A stretch of 36,366 nucleotides of DNA. Origin: an uncultured Bacillota bacterium (GTDB taxonomy: Bacteria > Bacillota_I > Bacilli_A > RF39 > UBA660). The notes below the pieces were generated by a model. The model was given only the letters and a program-made list of their open reading frames with translations, searched no databases and was not told the DNA's origin. The DNA lies in NCBI GenBank assembly GCA_947246355.1, contig CAMXQX010000005.1, positions 1 through 36,366 on the forward strand, given 5' to 3'. Position numbers and translations under genes: made by a program. Shown here piece after piece: positions 9,346 through 25,511 of the stretch; positions within the stretch are counted from its first letter, which is position 1, and every line of letters starts with the position of its first letter.

Positions 9346-9783
9346 TCATACATCCATTTCTATAGCAATATGCGAAACTCCTTCTTCTAAAAATTCGCTA
9401 GATATTGCCCTAAATCCAAATTGTTCATAAAAAGTAAGTGCATGTTTTTGTGCATGTCCATACAACTTAACACAATTCATTTTTTGCTTTATAACTTTTA
9501 AACTCTCACTCCACAAACACTTACCAATGCCTTTTCCATGTTCAATCGTCAAAAATCTTCCAAGTCTAACAACTTTATTGCTATCATCTTCGTAAAAAGC
9601 TCGTAAATAGGCTATAACATGCCCATTATTCATAAAAAAGCAATGCAAGCTATCATAATCAATATCATCCATATCTAAATAACGAATCCCCTGTTCAACA
9701 ACAAATACTTTTGCTCTTGCCTTTAATATTTCATACAATTCCTCTTTTGTTAATTCATCAAATCTTTTTGCAATGAAATTCAT
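9346..9783 (-). CDS. GNAT family N-acetyltransferase (ElaA-like)
   Basis: GNAT enzymes transfer acetyl from acetyl-CoA to amines. The 145-residue protein carries the ElaA-type N-terminus (ELYEILKARAKVFVVEQGIRY), the central strand VVRLGRFLTIEHGKGIGKCLW with the acetyl-CoA pyrophosphate loop (motif A, with G-K-G-I-G-K in place of the usual R/Q-G-x-G-x-G/A), and the C-terminal HAQKHALTFYEQFGF. The ATG at 9783 is chosen over 9813 because it gives the usual family start and has GGAAAG about 7 bases upstream. It is the first gene of a pair with the AlaX-like gene. The substrate is unknown. Confidence 0.88.
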   Translation of the reverse strand: MNFIAKRFDELTKEELYEILKARAKVFVVEQGIRYLDMDDIDYDSLHCFFMNNGHVIAYLRAFYEDDSNKVVRLGRFLTIEHGKGIGKCLWSESLKVIKQKMNCVKLYGHAQKHALTFYEQFGFRAISSEFLEEGVSHIAIEMDV

Positions 9784-15469: not shown

Positions 15470-16047
15470 TTGAAAAAAATTATAATTTCTATTGTTTGTC
15501 TTGTGATTGTTGTTTTAGGAGCACTATGGCTTGCCAATAAAAAAGACGATACAAGTACTTTGAAGAAAGTAAAAGTAGCCGAAGTAGCGCACTCTATCTT
15601 CTATGCACCACAGTATTTAGCCCATGCACTAGGATACTTCGAAGAGGAAGGTTTGGACGTTGAAATTATCTTAGCTAATGGAGCAGATGCAGTTGCAGCT
15701 TCTGTGATGTCTGACGATGTACAAATCGGTTTTTGTGGTAGTGAACAAACTATCTACGTTTATAACCAAGGTGCGAAGGACTACTTAATTAATTTCTCAT
15801 CACTAACCAAAAAGGATGGAAGTTTCTTAGTAGCACGCACGGAAATGAAGGATTTTTCTATTAGTGATTTAAAAGGTTCCCATATTATTGCAGGTAGAAA
15901 AGCAGGAATGCCTGCCATGACACTTGAATGGGTTTTAAATCAAAATGGAATTAAAACCGAAGACGTTAATTTTGATACAAGTATTGCTTTTGCAGCCATG
16001 AGTGGAGCATTCATTGGTGGTACTGGAGACTATGTTTCCCTATTTGA
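15470..16047 (+). pseudogene. 5' part of ABC transporter substrate-binding protein gene (NMT1/ThiY-like), split by insertion
   Basis: The first 192 codons of a substrate-binding protein for an ABC importer of the NMT1/ThiY/SsuA superfamily. Seen: a TTG start after AAAGGAGGGG, an N-terminal hydrophobic segment (3-21, no lipobox cysteine, so likely a membrane anchor or signal), then AEVAHSIFYAPQYLAHALGYF, the SBP strand GLDVEIILANGADAVAASVM and KGSHIIAGRKAGMPAMTLEW. It stops resembling the family after ...GDYVSLF at 16045. The reading frame then runs on for 62 codons into foreign DNA (to 16234) with no family similarity. The missing 137 residues are at 25098-25511. Joined at the GA dinucleotide the halves give an in-frame protein of 329 residues. 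Likely inactive while the element is inserted. Confidence 0.93.
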
Positions 16048-16066
16048 TGATAGTGTAAGTATAAAA
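16028..16066. other. attL-like junction of the integrated element
   Basis: Host sequence ...TTTCCCTATTT, then core GA (16046-16047), then the element arm TGATAGTGTAAGTATAAAA (16048-16066). The arm is repeated in inverted orientation at 25079-25097. No target duplication other than GA, as for large serine recombinases. Confidence 0.85.
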
Positions 16067-16072
16067 CGCCTC

Positions 16073-17218
16073 CTAATCTTCATCAAAGTCCTTTCTTATC
16101 ATTTTTCCAATATAGTTTTTGTCTTCATTTATACATTTTTTATAAACCTTTGGCGAATTTTCACTGAAAGTATCTTCTCCGTTAAAGTCTTCTCTAATCA
16201 TTTGACTTATATGTTCCATAGAATGGTTTCCTAAAACAAAAATTTCCTCTAAAGGTGCGTCTCCCCCTTCTTCTATATATGCCTCTAAGTTTGTTTCTAA
16301 TTCCGCTAAGGACTCTTCCTTTGAAAGTCTTTGCATTGCAGCTTTGATTTGTTCCTCATGTTGTTCCATAAATTTCACACGTTCTAAAGAGGTAAGTCTA
16401 TCTGCTACTTTATGCATTACTTGTATTTTATCCTGTTGTTTATTCCCTTTTCCATAATTTCGAATCTTAGTAATAATTTCTCCTATGATTTCATCCACTT
16501 CTTTCCTTATTCTATTTACAACTACTTTTGCATTCTTATAGGTGTTTTCGATACTTTCTTTTCTAAAGCTTTCATTTTCTTCTATCTCTCTATAAATTTT
16601 AGCAAAAACAGGTATATCATCACTATAATATAAAATATCTACTTTATCACACCCAATAATAGTAGAATCCCTTTCCCATGCAGAGACCATATTAGTAGGC
16701 CTGTACTCTTCTGCATATACAGTATCACTTTCTTTTTTCTTCATTCTAGTAAATTTCCCAATACATTTATCTTCCATTGTCACCTCTGTTTCAGTAACTT
16801 CAATACACCTATCTTCATTATTACTTAGAGGTAATCCAAAAAGAGAATTATCTAATGACTCCTGTATTAAAAATTGTTGGAATGATTTAAGTTCATATTT
16901 TGTTCGTATACAAATGATAGGTTCTATACTTTCTAAACTATCTGTAACAATGGTTTGATTGATGACATATTCTCCATTCAACACCATATAACTTTTTAAT
17001 AATTGTAAGCCACTAGAATACGTATAGGAATCAATCCCATATTGTAAATACTCCCTTCTCCATTTTTTAAGCAATGCTATCTCACTACTGAAAAAAGGAA
17101 GTGTATACATAAGTTCTACTGCTCTTTCATTCCGTAAAGACTCCTTTTTTTCTATTTCCTGCAAGTCTAATTGTTCCTCTATTGCTTTTGTTATTTTATC
17201 ATTCGCATTAATTGTCAT
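16073..17218 (-). CDS. Unrecognised coiled-coil protein at left end of element
   Basis: The 381-residue protein has no family I recognise. It is hydrophilic with no membrane segment. The N-terminal part (about 1-60) is helical and charged; a mixed middle section (about 60-215) includes IEPIICIRTKYELKSFQQFL and a run of acidic strands; the second half (about 215-345) is predicted helical or coiled-coil, with long Glu/Lys stretches and KVADRLTSLERVKFMEQHEEQ. GAGGAGG precedes the ATG. It stops only 7 bases inside the left arm, so it is the last gene of the element. It follows the RhuM gene by 31 bases and is likely in the same operon. Confidence 0.6.
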   Translation of the reverse strand: MTINANDKITKAIEEQLDLQEIEKKESLRNERAVELMYTLPFFSSEIALLKKWRREYLQYGIDSYTYSSGLQLLKSYMVLNGEYVINQTIVTDSLESIEPIICIRTKYELKSFQQFLIQESLDNSLFGLPLSNNEDRCIEVTETEVTMEDKCIGKFTRMKKKESDTVYAEEYRPTNMVSAWERDSTIIGCDKVDILYYSDDIPVFAKIYREIEENESFRKESIENTYKNAKVVVNRIRKEVDEIIGEIITKIRNYGKGNKQQDKIQVMHKVADRLTSLERVKFMEQHEEQIKAAMQRLSKEESLAELETNLEAYIEEGGDAPLEEIFVLGNHSMEHISQMIREDFNGEDTFSENSPKVYKKCINEDKNYIGKMIRKDFDED

Positions 17219-17249
17219 TTTTTCCTCCTCGTATAACTATATTTAATTC

Positions 17250-18227
17250 TTATTTATCAATAGCATCAATTTCCTTATTTAGCATTTCTAAATAATCTTT
17301 CTCAGCAGTGGTTAAATGATTAACCTTATATCTATCATATTCTTCGTGTGCTTTCTTCAAAGCTTCTTCATGGGATATTTTCCCACTATCTTTTAGAATA
17401 TCTTTTCTTGTCATCTTTAAAAATGTATCTAATTCATTCACCCAATCCTGCATTGTCATAGGACGTCTATCTAAAGCATTAATTTCAGCAACATCTAAAT
17501 AAGCAGAGACCATTCTATTTAAAGTATTCATCTCTTCCTCTGTTAAATAATTTTTAGCAATTTCAGTCTCACTTTTTGTAGGATATTCTCCTTTAAAATT
17601 AGTAAATCCTAAATTTTCTTTTTCTGAATCAACTCTAGTAAAAATTATCTCTGCAGCTGTATTGCCATGCGTAGCGTAGTGCATTTTGTTTTGTACAGTT
17701 TTAAAGAAATTAATTGATAATTTATCCTTAGGATTATAATCAATGGAAGTTGCATAAATATCTAAAACTTTTCTCCAAAATATTTTTTCACTCGATCTAA
17801 TATCTCGAATTCTAGCAAGTAATTCTTCAAAGTATGGACTTTCTCCATTATTTTTTAATCTTTCATCATTTAAAGCAAAACCTTTTATCATGTATTCTTT
17901 TAATACTTTAGTTGCCCATATCCTAAATTCAGTTGCTTTTTTAGAATTAATTCTATATCCAACAGCAATAATTGCATCTAGATTATAATGTAAAACATTA
18001 TATTTTTTACCATCTCTAGCAGTTGTTAAGAATTTCTTAACAACTGAATCTTTTTGCAATTCTCCTTCATCAAAAACATTTTTTAAATGTATAGAGATAT
18101 TATTTTTGGTTGTACCATAAAGATTAGCCATTACATCTTGACTCATCCATATATCGTCATTTTTAATATTAACATCAATTTTTACATTACCATCTTTTGA
18201 AACATATATCATCATATTATTTTTCAT
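17250..18227 (-). CDS. RhuM family (Virulence_RhuM) protein
   Basis: The 325-residue protein matches the RhuM family: an N-terminal DNA-binding-like section with WMSQDVMANLYGTTKNNIS and IHLKNVFDEGELQ, then the family signature YNVLHYNLDAIIAVGYRINS and ATEFRIWATKVLKEYMIKGF, then MQDWVNELDTFLKMTR near the end. RhuM was named from a Salmonella pathogenicity island; it is widespread on genomic islands and often beside restriction or toxin-antitoxin genes, but its molecular activity is not established. AGAGGCGA precedes the ATG. It lies between the Nudix-hydrolase fusion and the coiled-coil gene on one strand. Confidence 0.88.
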   Translation of the reverse strand: MKNNMMIYVSKDGNVKIDVNIKNDDIWMSQDVMANLYGTTKNNISIHLKNVFDEGELQKDSVVKKFLTTARDGKKYNVLHYNLDAIIAVGYRINSKKATEFRIWATKVLKEYMIKGFALNDERLKNNGESPYFEELLARIRDIRSSEKIFWRKVLDIYATSIDYNPKDKLSINFFKTVQNKMHYATHGNTAAEIIFTRVDSEKENLGFTNFKGEYPTKSETEIAKNYLTEEEMNTLNRMVSAYLDVAEINALDRRPMTMQDWVNELDTFLKMTRKDILKDSGKISHEEALKKAHEEYDRYKVNHLTTAEKDYLEMLNKEIDAIDK

Positions 18228-18252
18228 TAAATCGCCTCTTTATGCAATAAAT

Positions 18253-19695
18253 TCATTCCATAGATTTTATACTATCAATAATTAATTTTGACATTTGTTT
18301 TTCATGTTCCTTATAATCGTGTGTTGAATTAGGTATAACATAAAATTGAAATTTAGCATTTTTAAATCTTTCTTTTAACCTGTTTTCAACATAGGACATC
18401 TCCCAACCTTTATAAACATGTTCGCTACTTCCAGCAATTATTGAAATAAATCCTTTATAATTTAGAGGTTTTGCAATATCTCTATTTTCTTCTAATTTAA
18501 ATAAATCAGCTTTACTACCAATAGCCATTGTTGAGGCAACTTTTAATGCTGCAAATTCATCTGTCACCATTTCGTAAGGCTTGCCATCTTTAATTAATTT
18601 TTTGCTTTTACTAACTAACTCACCATATTTTTCTTTAACTCTATATCTAAATCTACTAACCATATCAACTGGACTTAGTAAAATTGCTTTATTAATATCG
18701 CCAATTTGTTCCAAATAATATTGAACTTTTAAAGTTCCTAAACTTTGTCCTACTAAAATAATATCTTCATATTTCATATCTTTAGCGTAATTTACTGTTG
18801 CTGCAATATCATAAATTGAATCATCAAAATTTTCATAAATATTACCTGCTTTTATAGTTTCAGTAACTCCTTTGTTTTTACGATGGAGACGAAAAAACTG
18901 TTCCGAACCCCGATTGTTAGAAATCATAAAATCATATCCATAGTAATTAAATTCTTCAAACATTTCTTCATAATAATCTGATTTGAAGAAATTTCCACCA
19001 CTTCCATGAATAAATATAATAATAGACTTTGTTTTTTTATCAGAATGTTGTATTAATCCAGGTAAAAAGCAACCATCTTCTGTATTTAAAAGAATAAATT
19101 CCTTTTTATGATATTCTTTTTTAGTATTAACCCCTTTAATAATCTTTGATAATTCACCAAAGATATTAATATAAGCTGGAGTATTCTTGAAAACAACTTC
19201 GTCACTATCTGTTAGCATAAGTTCCTGTAATTCATAAAAATCAAACCATTTTTTATCTGTTGCAAGATAAGTATTCAATTTTATGTCCTCATCTTTAATA
19301 TTCGTTTTTATATAATAAAAATAAGTAAATCTCTGCTCACGTTCTTCATTTCTTTTTAGCATAGTTAGATATCTAATATCATTAGGGTTAATTTGGTATC
19401 CTATTTCTTCTATAGCCTTTTGTAATAAAGCATCTATCAATGATTGATTTGCTCCAACATGATTAGCTACCATTCCCCATTTTCCATTATTATAATGAAC
19501 ATTGTTACTACGTTTTTGTAATAAGATTTTACCCTCATCATTAATTATAAATATCGCAACTTCTTGATGCCACAAATGTTTTTCATGGACTTCTTTTTTG
19601 GTTGCCTCTATATCCGTAATATTACCATATTCATCTAAAACCTTTAATAACATTTTATCCTTTTCTTGATATGATTCATAGTGAACTACATTCAT
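18253..19695 (-). CDS. Nudix-like domain fused to an alpha/beta hydrolase
   Basis: One 480-residue frame carries two domains. Residues 1-170 are an isopentenyl-diphosphate isomerase-like Nudix fold (LWHQEVAIFIINDEGKILLQKRS, then GKWGMVANHVGANQSL and ALLQKAIEEIGYQI). The Nudix box is degenerate: the expected Gly, first Glu and Arg-Glu pair are Asn, Gln and Gln-Lys, and only the final Glu-Glu and Gly remain. Residues about 195-480 are an alpha/beta hydrolase with the oxyanion loop IHGSGGN, nucleophile elbow GQSLG and catalytic-His region NSTHDYKEHE. The acid residue is not obvious (GSSEH where Asp is common). A clear GAGGTGATTAACAATG start and a -10 TATAAT upstream support its own promoter. Substrate unknown; the Nudix half may bind rather than hydrolyse. 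Confidence 0.8.
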   Translation of the reverse strand: MNVVHYESYQEKDKMLLKVLDEYGNITDIEATKKEVHEKHLWHQEVAIFIINDEGKILLQKRSNNVHYNNGKWGMVANHVGANQSLIDALLQKAIEEIGYQINPNDIRYLTMLKRNEEREQRFTYFYYIKTNIKDEDIKLNTYLATDKKWFDFYELQELMLTDSDEVVFKNTPAYINIFGELSKIIKGVNTKKEYHKKEFILLNTEDGCFLPGLIQHSDKKTKSIIIFIHGSGGNFFKSDYYEEMFEEFNYYGYDFMISNNRGSEQFFRLHRKNKGVTETIKAGNIYENFDDSIYDIAATVNYAKDMKYEDIILVGQSLGTLKVQYYLEQIGDINKAILLSPVDMVSRFRYRVKEKYGELVSKSKKLIKDGKPYEMVTDEFAALKVASTMAIGSKADLFKLEENRDIAKPLNYKGFISIIAGSSEHVYKGWEMSYVENRLKERFKNAKFQFYVIPNSTHDYKEHEKQMSKLIIDSIKSME

Positions 19696-19803
19696 TGTTA
19701 ATCACCTCTATATAAATTATACTAAAAAAGAATTAGTTTTCCTAGAACTTGACAGCATTTATAGGAAAAATTCTATTTTAAACAATATAAATAATTTCTT
19801 CAC

Positions 19804-19926
19804 TCATAGCCCTTTTTTATAAAGTCATTTTTGTTTTTTTCTAATTCTTTTAAACACTTTTTAATTTTTGTCAAATTCTCTGACAGCTTCTTTCCTAAAG
19901 AGGAATAAAATATTATTCTACCCTAA
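19804..19926 (-). pseudogene. Relic of a small helical gene
   Basis: A 40-codon open stretch without a start codon ends in TGA at 19804-19806. The encoded peptide (LGKKLSENLTKIKKCLKELE and onward) is a clear amphipathic helix, unlike the random translation nearby. It is preceded by a stop, so it looks like the 3' remnant of a gene lost during element assembly. Chance is possible at this AT content. Confidence 0.25.
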
Positions 19927-19932
19927 CATACG

Positions 19933-19963
19933 AAAAAAAGTTGAAAACTCCTTCAACTTTTTT
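19933..19963. terminator. Terminator of hydroxyacyl-CoA dehydrogenase gene
   Basis: Stem AAAAAAAGTTGAA / TTCAACTTTTTT with a 6-base loop, directly after the minus-strand stop at 19970, with T-runs on both strands. Confidence 0.9.
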
Positions 19964-19969
19964 AAATTT

Positions 19970-20935
19970 TCATAACTTATGATGCAATTTTAAGAGTTCA
20001 ATTAACATTTTATCCCTATATTCTGCTAAAGAAGCATTATCATTTCCTATTTCCGCGCTTCTATTTTTTAACTCCTCATTGACTCCTTCTTGTGCAATCA
20101 TGGCAAATTCATCTGGAATTTTTTTAAAATCAGCCATATCTGCTAACCACATATTCGCTGATGGTCCCATATGTTTTAAAGCTCCAGCAATTCCATATTG
20201 TCCTCCTCCTAATTGAAATACTAAAGAAGGACCCATAATTCCCCAACGAAGTCCTGGTCCATAGGTAACTGCTTTATCGGCATCTTCTATGGTACAAACG
20301 CCTCTTGTAACTAAATCACATACTTCTCTATACAAAGCCATTTGAATACGATTACAAATAAAACCTAAAGCTTCCTTTTTTAAAACAATCGGTTCTTTTC
20401 CAATCAACGTATAAAATTCCTTGGCAACCTCTACTACTACTTCACTTGTTTTATCTCCTTTTGTAATTTCCACAAGGGGAATTAAATGTGGTGGATTATA
20501 AGGATGCGCTCCTATAAAACGTTCTGGATGTTTGGCATTCTTACAAATTTCTGTGATAAGAAGACCTGATGTAGAACTTACAATAATGGTTTCAATAGAC
20601 GTATATTTTTCCATTTCTTCAACCATTTGTCTTTTAATGTCATAGTTTTCAGGACCCGATTCTACAATCAATTGAGCATTTCTTACTGCTTCTTCCATTG
20701 ATAAAGTATAGATAATACTTTTTTCAAGTTCCTCACTTTTTTCTTTCGTTAATACATTGTTTTTTATAAGAGTCTCTAAACTTTCATGAATTCTTTTTTT
20801 AGCAAGTTGTAAACTCTCTTCATTGATATCATAGACCGTAACACTTAAATCTTTCATAGCAAAATAAAGTGCCCAGCTGTAGCCTATGACTCCTGCTCCA
20901 ACACAAGATACCTCTCTTATTTCCTTTGCTTGCAT
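19970..20935 (-). CDS. 3-hydroxyacyl-CoA dehydrogenase family (lambda-crystallin/carnitine dehydrogenase-like)
   Basis: The 321-residue NAD-dependent dehydrogenase has an N-terminal Rossmann domain with GAGVIG (13-18) and the acidic end of the second strand (TVYDIN) that marks NAD preference. The middle carries SSTSGLLITEI and IGAHPYNPPHLIPLVEI, the substrate- and catalytic-histidine region of the lambda-crystallin, L-gulonate 3-dehydrogenase and carnitine 3-dehydrogenase branch. The C-terminal helical domain includes ALGFICNRIQMALYREVCDLV. It starts after AGAGGG. The exact substrate cannot be read. It stands between the integrase and a terminator, as cargo rather than a transfer function. 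Confidence 0.85.
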   Translation of the reverse strand: MQAKEIREVSCVGAGVIGYSWALYFAMKDLSVTVYDINEESLQLAKKRIHESLETLIKNNVLTKEKSEELEKSIIYTLSMEEAVRNAQLIVESGPENYDIKRQMVEEMEKYTSIETIIVSSTSGLLITEICKNAKHPERFIGAHPYNPPHLIPLVEITKGDKTSEVVVEVAKEFYTLIGKEPIVLKKEALGFICNRIQMALYREVCDLVTRGVCTIEDADKAVTYGPGLRWGIMGPSLVFQLGGGQYGIAGALKHMGPSANMWLADMADFKKIPDEFAMIAQEGVNEELKNRSAEIGNDNASLAEYRDKMLIELLKLHHKL

Positions 20936-21018
20936 ATTTACCCTCTCTTTCTATTTTTATTGTACCAAATTTATAAAAAGAAAGAGCTATTTTCTTGTTT
21001 ACTTTACATAACCTTCTG

Positions 21019-22704
21019 TCAAAGGTAAGAATAAACATGTACTTGGTAAGTCACCTCATAGCGCTTGGTTCCTTTGGTATCGTATCCTCTTTTAAAAATA
21101 TATTCCTTTTCTTTTAGTAATTCTTGTTTTTCGAGTTCGTACGATAAAAAGATATCTAGATGGATGCTATTTTCTTTTGTTTTATCTTGGAAAACAGTAA
21201 TAGAATCAAGAAGAAAGCCTACTATTTTATCAAAAACGGCTTTGCTCTGCCCTTTTTCTATTAAAAATTTTTCTATTTCCTGTAGTGGATTTTTCTTACC
21301 ATCCCTATCTTTTTTTGTCTTTTGTAATTTGCTTTTTAATTCCTTGATTTCTGTATCGTACGTTTTATAGTATTCCTTCAATTCCTCTTTTGGTAAGTTT
21401 TCATCTAAGTAAAGAGATAAGAGTTTCTTCTTTTTTATTTCTATCTCTTTGATTTCCTTCTCAAGTAGAAAATCTTTCTCCTCTATAAAAGAGGAGGTTG
21501 TCTGTTTATAAAAGGATGAAAGAAGAAGAATTGCATTTTTGCTATAGATGCCTAATTGTTCTAAAATATCCCTTAAAATAAAATCAAGTTCTGATTCACG
21601 AAGATTAGGGGTAGTACATGCTTTTTTGCCTTGTTTTAAATAAGTGCTACATACCCATGTTTTATCACTGTCTACTTTTCGAAAGGTTCTTCTATGAAAT
21701 ACAGTTCCATGTTCTTTGCAATAAATTTTCGCACTATAAGTATATCTGTTCTTATAAAGTGCTTTATCTCCCCTTCGATTTTGAAATGATTTTTTCCTTA
21801 ATTCCAAACGAGTATTTGCATGTTCCCATAACTCTTCTGTGACGATAGGTGGAATTCTAACTTGGTTTTCATATAAAATCCAATCTTTCTTCTTAAAATA
21901 TTTTATCTTTTTAGTCATGTAATCAACAATTTCTGATTTTCTAGCACAATAATACCCTTTGTATTTTGGATTTTCTAACATGCGGGAGATGGTCGTGATA
22001 CTCCACTGTTTACCTAGTCTTGTTGTTTTCCCTTCCTTATTTAAAATGGCGACAATATGAGACAAGGAATATTCTTTGATGGCATAGAGTTCATAAATTC
22101 TTCGCACTTGCTCTGCTTCTTTTGCTACAATGGAAAGCCTTCCTGTTGTTTTGTCTTTCTCGTAACCATACAATTGATTATTTCCTAAAATTTCTCCTCT
22201 TTCTATCGCCCGCTCCATCCCAAATTTCACACGTTCAGATAACCTTCGAATTTCATCTTGGGCCATCGAAGCCATAATGGTTAGCCTTAATTCTGCATCA
22301 GGTAAAGCGGTATTAATATTATCATTTACGAACAAAACAGCAACACCATACGATAAAAGTTCTCTAGTATATTTAATACTGTCGAGGGTGTTTCTTGAAA
22401 ATCTTGATATTTCTTTGGTTACAATTAAGTCAAATTTTCCACTTCGAGCGTCCTCTAACATCTGCATAAAACTGTCTCGTTTAACATCGCTTGTCCCAGT
22501 AATTCCATCATCAACATAACCTTCTACATATGTCCAATTGGGATTTTCTTCAATATACTGTCTAAAATGTTCTACTTGATTTTGAAGGGATTTTTTCTGT
22601 TCAACATGTTCTGTGGAAACTCTTGCATAATCCGTAACACGTAAACGTAAATGCGTTAAAGACTTGCCAAGCGCTAATTCGCTTCGAACCTGGTATAAAT
22701 CCAA
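21019..22704 (-). CDS. Large serine recombinase (integrase)
   Basis: The 561-residue protein is a large serine recombinase, which integrates and excises DNA through a Ser-DNA covalent link. Resolvase domain (about 20-170): YARVS with catalytic Ser30, then VTKEISRFSRN and ASMAQDEIRRLSERVKFG. Recombinase domain (about 190-330): YGYEK..., ISRMLENPKYKGYYCARKSE. Zinc ribbon (about 345-385): paired Cys in CKEHG and WVCSTYLKQGKKAC. The remainder (about 395-520) is coiled-coil. The start is TTG after GCAGGTG at 6 bases; ATG is absent nearby. It lies 29 bases after the 59-residue gene. It is intact, with no frameshift or missing motif, and faces a GA-core site pair at the element ends. Confidence 0.95.
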   Translation of the reverse strand: MDLYQVRSELALGKSLTHLRLRVTDYARVSTEHVEQKKSLQNQVEHFRQYIEENPNWTYVEGYVDDGITGTSDVKRDSFMQMLEDARSGKFDLIVTKEISRFSRNTLDSIKYTRELLSYGVAVLFVNDNINTALPDAELRLTIMASMAQDEIRRLSERVKFGMERAIERGEILGNNQLYGYEKDKTTGRLSIVAKEAEQVRRIYELYAIKEYSLSHIVAILNKEGKTTRLGKQWSITTISRMLENPKYKGYYCARKSEIVDYMTKKIKYFKKKDWILYENQVRIPPIVTEELWEHANTRLELRKKSFQNRRGDKALYKNRYTYSAKIYCKEHGTVFHRRTFRKVDSDKTWVCSTYLKQGKKACTTPNLRESELDFILRDILEQLGIYSKNAILLLSSFYKQTTSSFIEEKDFLLEKEIKEIEIKKKKLLSLYLDENLPKEELKEYYKTYDTEIKELKSKLQKTKKDRDGKKNPLQEIEKFLIEKGQSKAVFDKIVGFLLDSITVFQDKTKENSIHLDIFLSYELEKQELLKEKEYIFKRGYDTKGTKRYEVTYQVHVYSYL

Positions 22705-22733
22705 GAAAACACCTGCTTTCTACCTACCATTGG

Positions 22734-22913
22734 TTATTTCCCTGTAGTCTGTTTTTCTTTTTTTAAAAGAGCTTCCTCGCATTTTTTGTAAACTTGATAA
22801 GAAATTCTTTTTTCGCTAAACAACTCTTCATTTAGAAAAAGGGCAATAGCAACCGTAATTTGTCTATTTTTACTTTTAATTCTCTGCTTGTTTACAAGAA
22901 GTTCCTCTTCCAT
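22734..22913 (-). CDS. Small basic protein next to the integrase (candidate directionality factor)
   Basis: The 59-residue protein (MEEELLVNKQRIKSKNRQIT..., ending KKEKQTTGK) is Lys-rich with a hydrophobic helix (TVAIALFLNEELF) and a helix resembling a SHOCT-like short module (ISYQVYKKCEEALLK). The ATG at 22913 is preferred over GTG at 22922, which overlaps the AAGGTGGGGG Shine-Dalgarno. It lies directly upstream of the integrase on the same strand, the common place for a recombination directionality factor or regulator of serine integrases. No family assigned; the role is inference. Confidence 0.6.
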   Translation of the reverse strand: MEEELLVNKQRIKSKNRQITVAIALFLNEELFSEKRISYQVYKKCEEALLKKEKQTTGK

Positions 22914-22965
22914 AACCCCCACCTTCTATATAATCGTATGAATGTTACAAAAAAATAACACGAAA

Positions 22966-22990
22966 AGAAACAAAATTCTGTTTTGTTTCT
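22966..22990. repeat. Perfect 10-bp inverted repeat upstream of integrase operon
   Basis: AGAAACAAAA / TTTTGTTTCT with a 5-base loop, 53 bases upstream of the small gene. It could be an operator of the integrase operon or a backup terminator of the SDR gene. Confidence 0.5.
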
Positions 22991-23060
22991 CTTTTTCTTA
23001 ATTCCCTATTTTCTAAGCTAAAAGTGATTGTTATCCTACAATTTATCTAAATTTAATATA

Positions 23061-23090
23061 AAAAAAAGAAGATATTAACGCTTCTTTTTC
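23061..23090. terminator. Terminator of SDR gene
   Basis: Stem AAAAAGAAG / CTTCTTTTT with a 9-base loop, followed by T-runs on either strand; it lies about 35 bases beyond the minus-strand SDR stop. Confidence 0.8.
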
Positions 23091-23123
23091 AAAGCAATTT
23101 TGAACATCTATTGTCCAAAACTT

Positions 23124-24044
23124 CTACCCCATAACCTCTCCACCATTATTATGAAGAACCTGCCCTGTTACATAACTAGAGTCATCGGACGCTAAAAATA
23201 CGAAAGTGGGAGCAAGTTCGTATGGCATAGCTCCTCTTGCCATCGCTGAATTGCTTCCTAAAGAAGGTATTTTTTCTTTTACCCAACAAGCGGGTTGCAA
23301 TGGTGTCCAAAAAAATCCAGGAGCTATCGCATTGACACGAATATTTTTAAGCGCTAAATTACGAGCAAGCGCTCTAGTAAAACCAACAATAGCACCTTTA
23401 GTAGTCACATAATCAATCAATTGGGGGTCTCCATAAAAAGTAGTGACCGAAGTCAAATTAATAATGGAGGAACCCGATTTTAAATGGGGTAAAACAGCCT
23501 TGGTCAAATAAAACATACCATAAACATTTACTTTCATCGTTTGATCAAATTGTTCATCACTAATATTTTCCAAACAATCTTGTTGGTACTGTACACCTGC
23601 ATTATTGACAAGAATATCAATTTTTCCAAATGTCTCTATTGTTTTTTCTACAATTTCTTTGGAAAAGCGAGCATCCATCAAATTGCCAGATAGAAGGATA
23701 CATTCTCCTCCTAATTTTTCAATATACTCCTTGGTATACTTGGCGTCTTCATGTTCATTGTAGTAAGGGATTACTACTTTAGCTCCTTCTTTTACAAAAG
23801 CAATAGCTGCTGCTCGACCAAGCCCACTATCTGCCCCTGTAATAATAGCCACCTTATCTTGCAGTTTTCCACTCCCCTTATAATTTGGATTGTCAAAAAC
23901 AGGAAGCGGCTTCATTAAATACTCTTTTCCTGGTTGTTCACTTTGAGATTGCGCAGGAGCCAGTATTTGGTATTCTGTACTTTTAATACCTAACTTATCA
24001 TAATAATTAAAATATTGATTGCCAAAATGGTAATCGTAGTCCAT
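23124..24044 (-). CDS. Short-chain dehydrogenase/reductase (general stress protein 39-like)
   Basis: The 306-residue NAD(P)-dependent SDR has an N-terminal extension of about 60 residues typical of the YhdF/GSP39/YhxC subgroup (PAQSQSEQPG motif), then a Rossmann fold with TGADSGLG (69-76) and NNAG (147-150). The catalytic set is intact: Ser199, Tyr212 and Lys216 (YVTTK). The C-terminal part reads NAIAPGFFWTPLQP and SSYVTGQVLHNNGG. The start is fixed by GGAGGTGATACGATG. Cargo of the element; in Bacillus relatives are sigma-B-type stress genes, but nothing here indicates stress control. Confidence 0.9.
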   Translation of the reverse strand: MDYDYHFGNQYFNYYDKLGIKSTEYQILAPAQSQSEQPGKEYLMKPLPVFDNPNYKGSGKLQDKVAIITGADSGLGRAAAIAFVKEGAKVVIPYYNEHEDAKYTKEYIEKLGGECILLSGNLMDARFSKEIVEKTIETFGKIDILVNNAGVQYQQDCLENISDEQFDQTMKVNVYGMFYLTKAVLPHLKSGSSIINLTSVTTFYGDPQLIDYVTTKGAIVGFTRALARNLALKNIRVNAIAPGFFWTPLQPACWVKEKIPSLGSNSAMARGAMPYELAPTFVFLASDDSSYVTGQVLHNNGGEVMG

Positions 24045-24105
24045 CGTATCACCTCCCTATAACATATGAAATAAAGTTGCTTTCTATCAAAAAAATATCC
24101 GTTTT

Positions 24106-25020
24106 CTAAACAGATACTTCTTTTCGTTCTTTGATTGTACTTAAAAATATTTCCGCATCCTTTTTTAAGTTTTTTAAAAATTCTTGATAATACTTTCCAA
24201 TCACATTCGGATAAAAATAAGTAAGAACATATGTCCAATTTTCAATATCTTCTTCTTTTATTTCTGTAAACAAATAAAAGGGCTCTAAATAAAGGTCTAA
24301 GTACTCTAATCCACAATAGTCAATAAAATTGTTCATTTCCAAATTCCAAGTCGATAAACTTCTTTTTGTATTTTGCACAGCCAAACATGCTATATTCGCT
24401 ATTGCATTTTTCCTTAAATCTATTTCTTGCATTTTAAAATCATAGGCCAAACGATAAATCGAATATTCTGATAAAGTAAAAGAATCTGTTGTATCAATAC
24501 GATATAATTTTTTATTCTTTAAAAGAACCTCAATGCCGTCCCCCTCAAAGAATAGAGACTCCATCCCTTGAAAACGAAAATAATCCTTCCAATTTTCTAT
24601 ACTATCTTTATTTTGTAAAATACTTTTTAAACCTACTCTTTCTCCCTCCTCTAAATATTCTATTCCGCAAACAAAATCACTTTTAAACTTTTCTTTGTCT
24701 TCATCTAAAACAAAAAGTTTTACAGGGGCAACGGATACTCCCATACTATTTGCTATTTTACCATACATGTATTCATTGCAAGCGCAATCATAATGTTCAT
24801 GTTTGACAATGTATTTTTTTGTTTTATCTTTTTTACTCGTCGCTAAAAATAAGGACCCACTATCTCCATCATGGGGGTAGTCTTCAAAAATAAAATCACT
24901 ACTGTATAAAATATCATCGTCTTTCGGAATTTCTCTTTTCTTATTTTCAACCTCTTTCGTCTTTCGAAAACTTTCTCGAACCATTTCCCCTAGTTTTTTA
25001 TTTTCTACCTCGGAATACAT
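24106..25020 (-). CDS. Possible kinase-fold protein (HipA/PI3K-like, uncertain)
   Basis: The 304-residue protein is not recognised with confidence. Its central part is suggestive of a protein-kinase-like fold: SGSLFLATSKKDKTKKYIVK gives a strand-turn-strand with a candidate ATP lysine, followed by NEYMYGKIANSMGVSVAPVK, like the Glu-bearing helix of HipA-type kinases, and LYRIDTTDSF resembles the metal-binding Asp end of that fold. No clear HxxxxN catalytic loop is visible, so it could be a pseudokinase. A -10 element (TG-C-TATAAT) and GGTGATTT Shine-Dalgarno give it its own start near the right end of the element. Function unknown. Confidence 0.5.
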   Translation of the reverse strand: MYSEVENKKLGEMVRESFRKTKEVENKKREIPKDDDILYSSDFIFEDYPHDGDSGSLFLATSKKDKTKKYIVKHEHYDCACNEYMYGKIANSMGVSVAPVKLFVLDEDKEKFKSDFVCGIEYLEEGERVGLKSILQNKDSIENWKDYFRFQGMESLFFEGDGIEVLLKNKKLYRIDTTDSFTLSEYSIYRLAYDFKMQEIDLRKNAIANIACLAVQNTKRSLSTWNLEMNNFIDYCGLEYLDLYLEPFYLFTEIKEEDIENWTYVLTYFYPNVIGKYYQEFLKNLKKDAEIFLSTIKERKEVSV

Positions 25021-25078
25021 AAATCACCTACGCTATTTCTTTTCTTCATTATAGCACATTTTTTAATTTCCAGTGCTT

Positions 25079-25117
25079 TTTTATACTTACACTAAGAGAA
25101 CCTAATGCATTAGCACT
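25079..25117. other. attR-like junction of the integrated element
   Basis: Element arm TTTTATACTTACACTAAGA (25079-25097), core GA (25098-25099), then host sequence ACCTAATGCATTAGC, where the importer gene resumes. The arm is the inverted mate of the left arm. Confidence 0.85.
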
Positions 25118-25511
25118 TGAAAAAGAAGGAAAGGGATATGTTGTTGCCTCTTTAGGAGAACTTGGTGGGGTTGTTCCTTATACAACATATCATGCAAAGA
25201 AAAGTTACATTGAAAAAAATCCAGAAGTCATTGAAGGATTTACCAAAGCAATTGATAAAGCGCTTGACTATGTACATAGTCATTCAGAAAGTGAAATTGC
25301 GAAAAATATCCAAGATTATTTTCCAGATGTAAGTTTCAATGACCTAACAAAAATTGTTAAACGATATATGGATATTGATGCTTGGTATGCTACATCTTTT
25401 ATCAGCGAAAAAGATTTTGACCATATACAAGAAATCATTGATAATGCTGGTGAACTTGATAAAAAAGCGCCATATGACAAATTAGTAGATACAACGTACA
25501 TGAAAAAATGA
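25098..25511 (+). pseudogene. 3' part of the split substrate-binding protein gene
   Basis: The C-terminal 137 codons of the importer's binding protein, without a start codon. Seen: EPNALALEKEGKGYVVASLG, then VVPYTTYHAKKSYIEKNPEV, the FTKAIDKALDYV helix and the typical SBP tail (DAWYATSFISEKDF, ending YMKK). The first codon GAA is completed by the GA core, and fusion with codon 192 at 16045 restores the frame. The stop TGA overlaps the ATPase start (ATGA), so translation of the ATPase would normally be coupled to the intact gene. No mutation other than the insertion is visible. Confidence 0.93.

Follow-up and report, generated by a model that had tools for sequence, protein, structure and literature searches.

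A mobile-element-borne fusion of a degenerate Nudix domain and an alpha/beta hydrolase in an uncultured Bacillota bacterium

The stretch of DNA analyzed here, which we call the window, is 36,366 nucleotides long, comes from an uncultured Bacillota bacterium and carries on its minus strand a 480-aa open reading frame (18253-19695) in which a Nudix domain with a damaged signature precedes an alpha/beta hydrolase. Such a gene raises three questions: whether it encodes one functional protein, whether its Nudix half has been inactivated or is simply decaying, and what an inactivated Nudix domain could do for a hydrolase. The features of the gene are as follows.

18253-19695, minus strand: fusion gene, pseudo-Nudix domain plus alpha/beta hydrolase, 480 aa; a single ORF with intact orthologues
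19147-19656, minus strand: Nudix-fold half, aa 14-183 (hhalign 99.9%, E 1e-34; Pfam NUDIX 7e-12)
19396-19464, minus strand: degenerate Nudix box, aa 78-100, NHVGANQSLIDALLQKAIEEIGY, with G78N, E84Q, R92Q and E93K lost and E96, E97 and G99 kept (alignments)
18262-19107, minus strand: alpha/beta hydrolase half, aa 197-478 (hhalign 99.9%, E 3.5e-37; Pfam)
18736-18750, minus strand: nucleophile elbow GQSLG with Ser318 (translation and alignment with stand-alone hydrolases)
18319-18321, minus strand: candidate catalytic His459, with Asp344 or Glu425 as acid candidates (alignment with stand-alone hydrolases)

The frame opens with ATG and has zero internal stops, and both Pfam families are found within it, in agreement with the description of a degenerate Nudix domain fused to an alpha/beta hydrolase that a sequence-only reading of this DNA had given. 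The NUDIX match covers aa 43-165 (45.9 bits against a cut-off of 21.1) and places this half in the Nudix superfamily fold, as does the hhalign match, in which aa 14-183 align end to end with a stand-alone Nudix family. A stand-alone hydrolase family is likewise matched end to end by aa 197-478, and the Pfam alpha/beta hydrolase families at aa 221-391 are Hydrolase_4 (5.9e-7), Abhydrolase_1 (7e-6) and DUF1749 (1.6e-5). Among NCBIfam models of the Nudix half, isopentenyl-diphosphate isomerase (IDI; TIGR02150) scored best and YfcD lower, all far under cut-off. Given the short linker between the halves, two complete proteins have been fused cleanly here, and on these profile matches the Nudix half is a complete YfcD/IDI-like domain joined to a complete alpha/beta hydrolase. 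No signal peptide was obvious by eye in the translation, and the protein is thus probably cytoplasmic. An AlphaFold model from four fusion sequences had a mean pLDDT of 45.8, too poor for viewing the pocket or the domain interface.

The hydrolase half has the sequence features expected of a serine hydrolase, namely a G-x-S-x-G elbow (G316-Q-S318-L-G320), a histidine, an acid and an oxyanion loop (HGSGG, residues 230-234). The elbow and loop noted in the sequence-only reading were thus both seen in the translation. The usual acid position is Glu425 in the fusion, Asp in most stand-alone relatives and Glu in one; Asp344, the second acid candidate, is invariant across the stand-alone hydrolase family. 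The solved relatives found by profile are remote (cinnamoyl/feruloyl-type esterases and an MHETase). Overall, this half is intact-looking and, judged by these residues, looks active.

The Nudix half is a different case. Every fused copy has a box of the form ANHVG(A/T/I)NQ(S/T)L(I/V)DA(L/I)LQKAIEEIGY, whereas the boxes of stand-alone relatives (31-39% identity) resemble CAGHVDAGESLExAALREIKEEVG. Compared with 28 stand-alone relatives, which retain the box with single exceptions at some positions, the fusion has lost G78 (to N), E84 (to Q), R92 (to Q), E93 (to K), Q141 (to N) and E144 (to L), while keeping E96, E97, G99 and most other conserved columns. The four box changes occur in all fused copies, none of which therefore carries the complete box GX5EX7REUXEEXGU. 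The earlier residue list, in which the Gly, the first Glu and the Arg-Glu pair were lost and the final Glu-Glu was kept, agrees with this alignment, although it overlooked a further loss: the distal metal-binding Glu, which is E in 28/28 stand-alone relatives, is Leu144 in the fusion. H43, E45 and Q60-K61-R62 are retained, and these residues are invariant in intact enzymes also. Losses affect 4/7 box residues versus 5/20 other conserved columns, an excess that is not significant (p = 0.18), so the argument for a dead domain is carried by the identity of the residues lost. Published comparisons lend support to this argument, given that changes similar in size or smaller abolish activity elsewhere: NUDT9 loses activity when its box is mutated to RILGEE or REFGKK (PMC6461439), and Mycobacterium smegmatis NrtR, with three changes, is without ADP-ribose hydrolase activity (PMC6800001). 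From the residues involved, the Nudix half has probably lost metal-dependent catalysis.

The fusion is also present in four more genomes at 81-93% identity, intact at loci L034 (93%), L035 (88%) and L036 (86%) and with a frameshift in the hydrolase half at L037 (81%). L034, L036 and L037 correspond to G079, G150 and G003 of our whole-genome search; L035 presumably belongs to the same GTDB family as the other fusion genomes, given its close relatedness. The same full-length ORF thus occurs in four assemblies, which rules out the frameshift artefact that the sequence-only reading had named as a way to be wrong. Comparison of the fused genes gave dN/dS values of 0.04-0.07 (Nudix half) and 0.06-0.12 (hydrolase half), and all fused copies share one invariant degenerate box (ANHVGxNQ...QKAIEEIG). 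With so low a ratio, the Nudix half is not decaying. A tree of 42 Nudix domains groups the fused ones in a single clade (100/98) with a long stem of 1.02 changes per column and a shallow crown. On this evidence, the fused Nudix domain is one that changed fast and then came under strong constraint, and not a dying gene, although the fused copies are all close relatives (81-93%) and conclusions about constraint rest on this narrow sample. The other suggested weakness, that the copy is just a decayed complete enzyme, fails for the same reasons, and complete boxes were found only in the stand-alone relatives at 31-39% identity. A search that reaches close relatives only found no further fusions among 385 order-level and 392 phylum-level genomes, sets that overlap the family search. 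Viral-contig scans and a phage collection gave no match to relatives of the fusion; a plasmid collection held no fusion, its sole match being one remote stand-alone hydrolase.

The gene lies in inserted DNA, the components and flanks of which are listed below.

16049-25085: inserted mobile DNA, 9.0 kb, probably two tandem elements with a boundary near 19800 (flanking substrate-binding-protein gene halves; junctions; end of L034 homology)
15470-16048, plus strand: 5' part of an NMT1/SsuA-like substrate-binding-protein gene, to codon ~193 (tblastn)
25086-25508, plus strand: 3' part of the same NMT1/SsuA-like substrate-binding-protein gene (tblastn)
16073-17218, minus strand: cargo ORF, 381 aa, at the end of the inserted DNA; no Pfam or NCBIfam family matched
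17250-18227, minus strand: RhuM-family gene directly downstream of the fusion (Pfam Virulence_RhuM 1e-107; PADLOC PDC-S05 1e-148)
19970-20935, minus strand: cargo 3-hydroxyacyl-CoA dehydrogenase-like gene (Pfam 3HCDH_N 8.5e-52)
21019-22704, minus strand: large serine recombinase (Pfam Resolvase, Recombinase, Zn_ribbon_recom)
23124-24044, minus strand: cargo SDR oxidoreductase that recurs beside recombinases of this type (78-84% identity at L137, L145 and L154)

The mobile element of the sequence-only reading is thus confirmed as a serine-recombinase element within an ABC substrate-binding-protein gene, which the insert splits at about codon 193 of that gene in its ABC operon. At L034, a related serine-recombinase element sits at the same site in the same gene and carries the fusion and RhuM. 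Since homology to L034 stops at window position 19800, before the recombinase block, the insert in the window is probably a tandem of two elements. At both ends of the insert (window positions 16052-16066 and 25078-25095) there is an inverted motif, AGTGTAAGTATAAAA and TTTTTTATACTTACACT. The fusion gene DNA is 80-90% identical between genomes, while their ABC genes are ~64-75% identical, the sister pair L036-L037 being the exception; this greater likeness of the fusion gene fits its spread by horizontal transfer. L037 has an intact copy of the substrate-binding-protein gene and, between this copy and the fusion gene, a remnant of the 3' end of the substrate-binding-protein gene (9607-9687; aa 302-328).

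Because each of the five fusion genes is within or next to the ABC operon, we considered a functional link between the fusion and the transporter. This was rejected as the default: elements integrate recurrently into the substrate-binding-protein gene, a hotspot seen in the window and at L034, L036 and L145-L154, and bring diverse cargo, which explains the fusion's nearness to the transporter. By our own count, the gene is in at least two pieces in about 63 of the 230 genomes that have it; among 40 genomes chosen for at least two pieces, the break points concentrate at codons ~145 and ~195, and two genomes (G123 and G246) have a break near codon 106. Elements at codon ~195 have recombinases 58-95% identical to that of L034 and varied cargo: SDR, surface proteins, an OLD-like AAA-TOPRIM protein or, at L152 (668-1522), a stand-alone relative of the hydrolase half that adjoins RhuM and occupies the slot of the fusion in L034. 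Another stand-alone relative of the hydrolase half is directly beside RhuM at L136 (4849-5670). The OLD-like protein is encoded at L151 (544-2358), in an element whose recombinase shares 95% identity with the L034 enzyme. The ABC operon's permease gene is cut as well, at codon ~208, beside a different large serine recombinase (L034:3056, L035:5016 and L129:2876). RhuM genes 81-90% identical to that of the window occur in about a dozen other genomes (L091-L102, L120-L129), and in several such inserts RhuM adjoins a 518-aa SWIM-domain protein and another recombinase type. At L086 (1055-12454) there is a long same-direction run of small genes, named mostly by eye, that includes Nudix, HD, histidine-phosphatase-like, SDR, deaminase-like and alpha/beta hydrolase genes. 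Rfam gave no match in the window or in four fusion loci, and with no TPP or FMN riboswitch a vitamin link is unsupported; promoter- and terminator-like sites showed no excess over shuffled sequence.

We hypothesize that a single fusion event joined two stand-alone cargo genes, after which the YfcD/IDI-like Nudix domain would have lost metal-dependent catalysis and been re-used as a non-catalytic module. In this scheme, the hydrolase half, which may be an esterase- or thioesterase-like cytoplasmic enzyme, would do the chemistry through Ser318, His459 and Asp344 or Glu425, while the Nudix half would bind a small ligand in its old substrate cleft, or a partner, and then gate or target the hydrolase; the fusion would have spread as cargo of site-specific serine-recombinase elements. 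We regard a non-catalytic Nudix module of this kind, acting on an active serine hydrolase, as somewhat more probable than its alternatives taken together. The sequence-only reading had considered it plausible that a Nudix fold controls the hydrolase, and this is the best-supported reading, with the binding, the control and the hydrolase activity being steps that we infer. A binding role is suggested by the precedents of NrtR/AraR and TRPM2, together with the constraint on a domain that appears to be dead.

An unlikely though credible alternative is that the Nudix half is a structural, oligomerization or substrate-capturing domain that senses nothing. Such a domain would also be expected to retain its fold residues and to be strongly constrained, as this one is, and a structural or substrate-capturing role predicts the identical sequence pattern. 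Nudix fusions to unrelated enzymes are, moreover, common in this bacterial family, so that fusion need not mean regulation. However, the other fusions of the family keep an intact box, which indicates that this domain changed specifically, and the retained H43, E45 and Q60-K61-R62 are invariant in intact enzymes too.

It is doubtful that the serine hydrolase is switched by a dead Nudix domain acting as a sensor of a nucleotide or lipid diphosphate, in a protein that mobile elements carry, possibly as an infection-triggered effector. Improbable, too, is an anti-phage effector in which the pseudo-Nudix half binds a nucleotide signal and thereby turns on a cell-damaging hydrolase. The fusion is mobile cargo beside RhuM, which matches the PADLOC defense candidate PDC-S05 (1e-148), an OLD/Gabija-like AAA-TOPRIM protein is encoded in a sister element whose recombinase is 95% identical, and an intact relative, L041, matches candidate PDC-S07 (1.6e-14, 51.7 bits). 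The fusion itself, however, matches PDC-S07 weakly (20.3 bits) and matches no curated PADLOC protein of a described anti-phage system. RhuM is present in 202/291 genomes and looks like element backbone, no signal-making gene adjoins the fusion, the other cargo is metabolic (SDR, dehydrogenase and YdjC), and the viral and phage collections gave no match and the plasmids only the one remote hydrolase. For the suggestion that this architecture could belong to a defense or metabolite-signaling system, the hints are thus indirect: apart from the 20-bit match, they are the co-carried RhuM and the OLD-like nuclease in another copy of the element. A defense role for the fusion is possible.

We also considered that the Nudix half could still be catalytic by altered chemistry, with another metal site, an IDI-like isomerase reaction or another substrate, and judge this quite improbable. 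IDI is a working enzyme despite a non-canonical box, E96 and E97 are kept in the fusion, and the clade is strongly constrained. Nevertheless, with Arg-Glu changed to Gln-Lys, a metal-ligand position now bears a positive charge, and Leu replaces the distal Glu that all 28 relatives have. In an alignment with 3hyq, the IDI catalytic Cys aligns with Ala77 of the fusion and the region of the IDI Glu is not conserved, and the NCBIfam model for type 1 isopentenyl-diphosphate isomerase scored 23.2 bits versus 105.8. Finally, an artefactual frameshift joining two genes, or a decaying Nudix enzyme, to which the frameshift at L037 might point, is so improbable as to be ruled out, unless all four separate assemblies are in error: each has the intact full-length ORF, dN/dS is 0.04-0.12 and the degenerate box is invariant.

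The non-catalytic module that we favor can be set against known systems. The closest relatives of each half are stand-alone proteins. YfcD/IDI-like Nudix proteins (PDB 2fkb and 3hyq) have the same fold, matched end to end by aa 14-183 at about 31-39% identity, but keep the box and the distal Glu and have no hydrolase. DUF1749/Hydrolase_4 hydrolases (about 273-298 aa) share the fold, elbow, His and acid positions at about 30% identity over the whole domain, but lack a Nudix domain and mostly have Asp at the position of Glu425. This bacterial family has further Nudix fusions that likewise combine two domains in one ORF, but with different partners and intact boxes:

L139:957-1961: Ham1 (ITPase)-Nudix fusion, intact box
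L140:831-1904: Nudix-YcxB fusion, intact box
L141:1574-2644: Nudix-phosphoribosyltransferase fusion, intact box
L143:1426-2514: Nudix-GNAT fusion, intact box
L144:76-900: Nudix fusion to a domain without a Pfam match, intact box

Given these several partner types, a Nudix fusion as such is ordinary in this family. On sequence grounds, the present one is set apart by an apparent loss of catalysis that is fixed and under constraint, together with its hydrolase partner. Our literature search found no paper on a Nudix-alpha/beta hydrolase fusion or on a dead Nudix domain coupled to a serine hydrolase.

Transcription factors and an ion channel are already known to use dead Nudix domains as ligand sensors. 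In NrtR/AraR, the Nudix box is impaired, several members are inactive and the domain is used for ligand binding (PMC4666351, PMC6800001), which moves a DNA-binding domain (PMC4666351). Like the fusion, these proteins have an N-terminal Nudix-fold domain with an impaired box joined to an output domain; theirs is a DNA-binding wHTH, whereas the C-terminal half of the fusion is an alpha/beta hydrolase, and NrtR models gave no match to the fusion, in which the wHTH is absent. The NUDT9-H domain of TRPM2 has a changed box and is catalytically dead in vertebrates (PMC6461439). It too is an altered-box Nudix domain linked to an effector part, but it is C-terminal to an ion channel, is kin to ADP-ribose hydrolases and is found in animals. 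If our reading is correct, an enzymatic output would join the known outputs of dead Nudix sensors. The fusion is a small, probably soluble protein that is directly testable, and with five copies under strong constraint, the role of the dead Nudix domain for its hydrolase should be answerable by simple tests.
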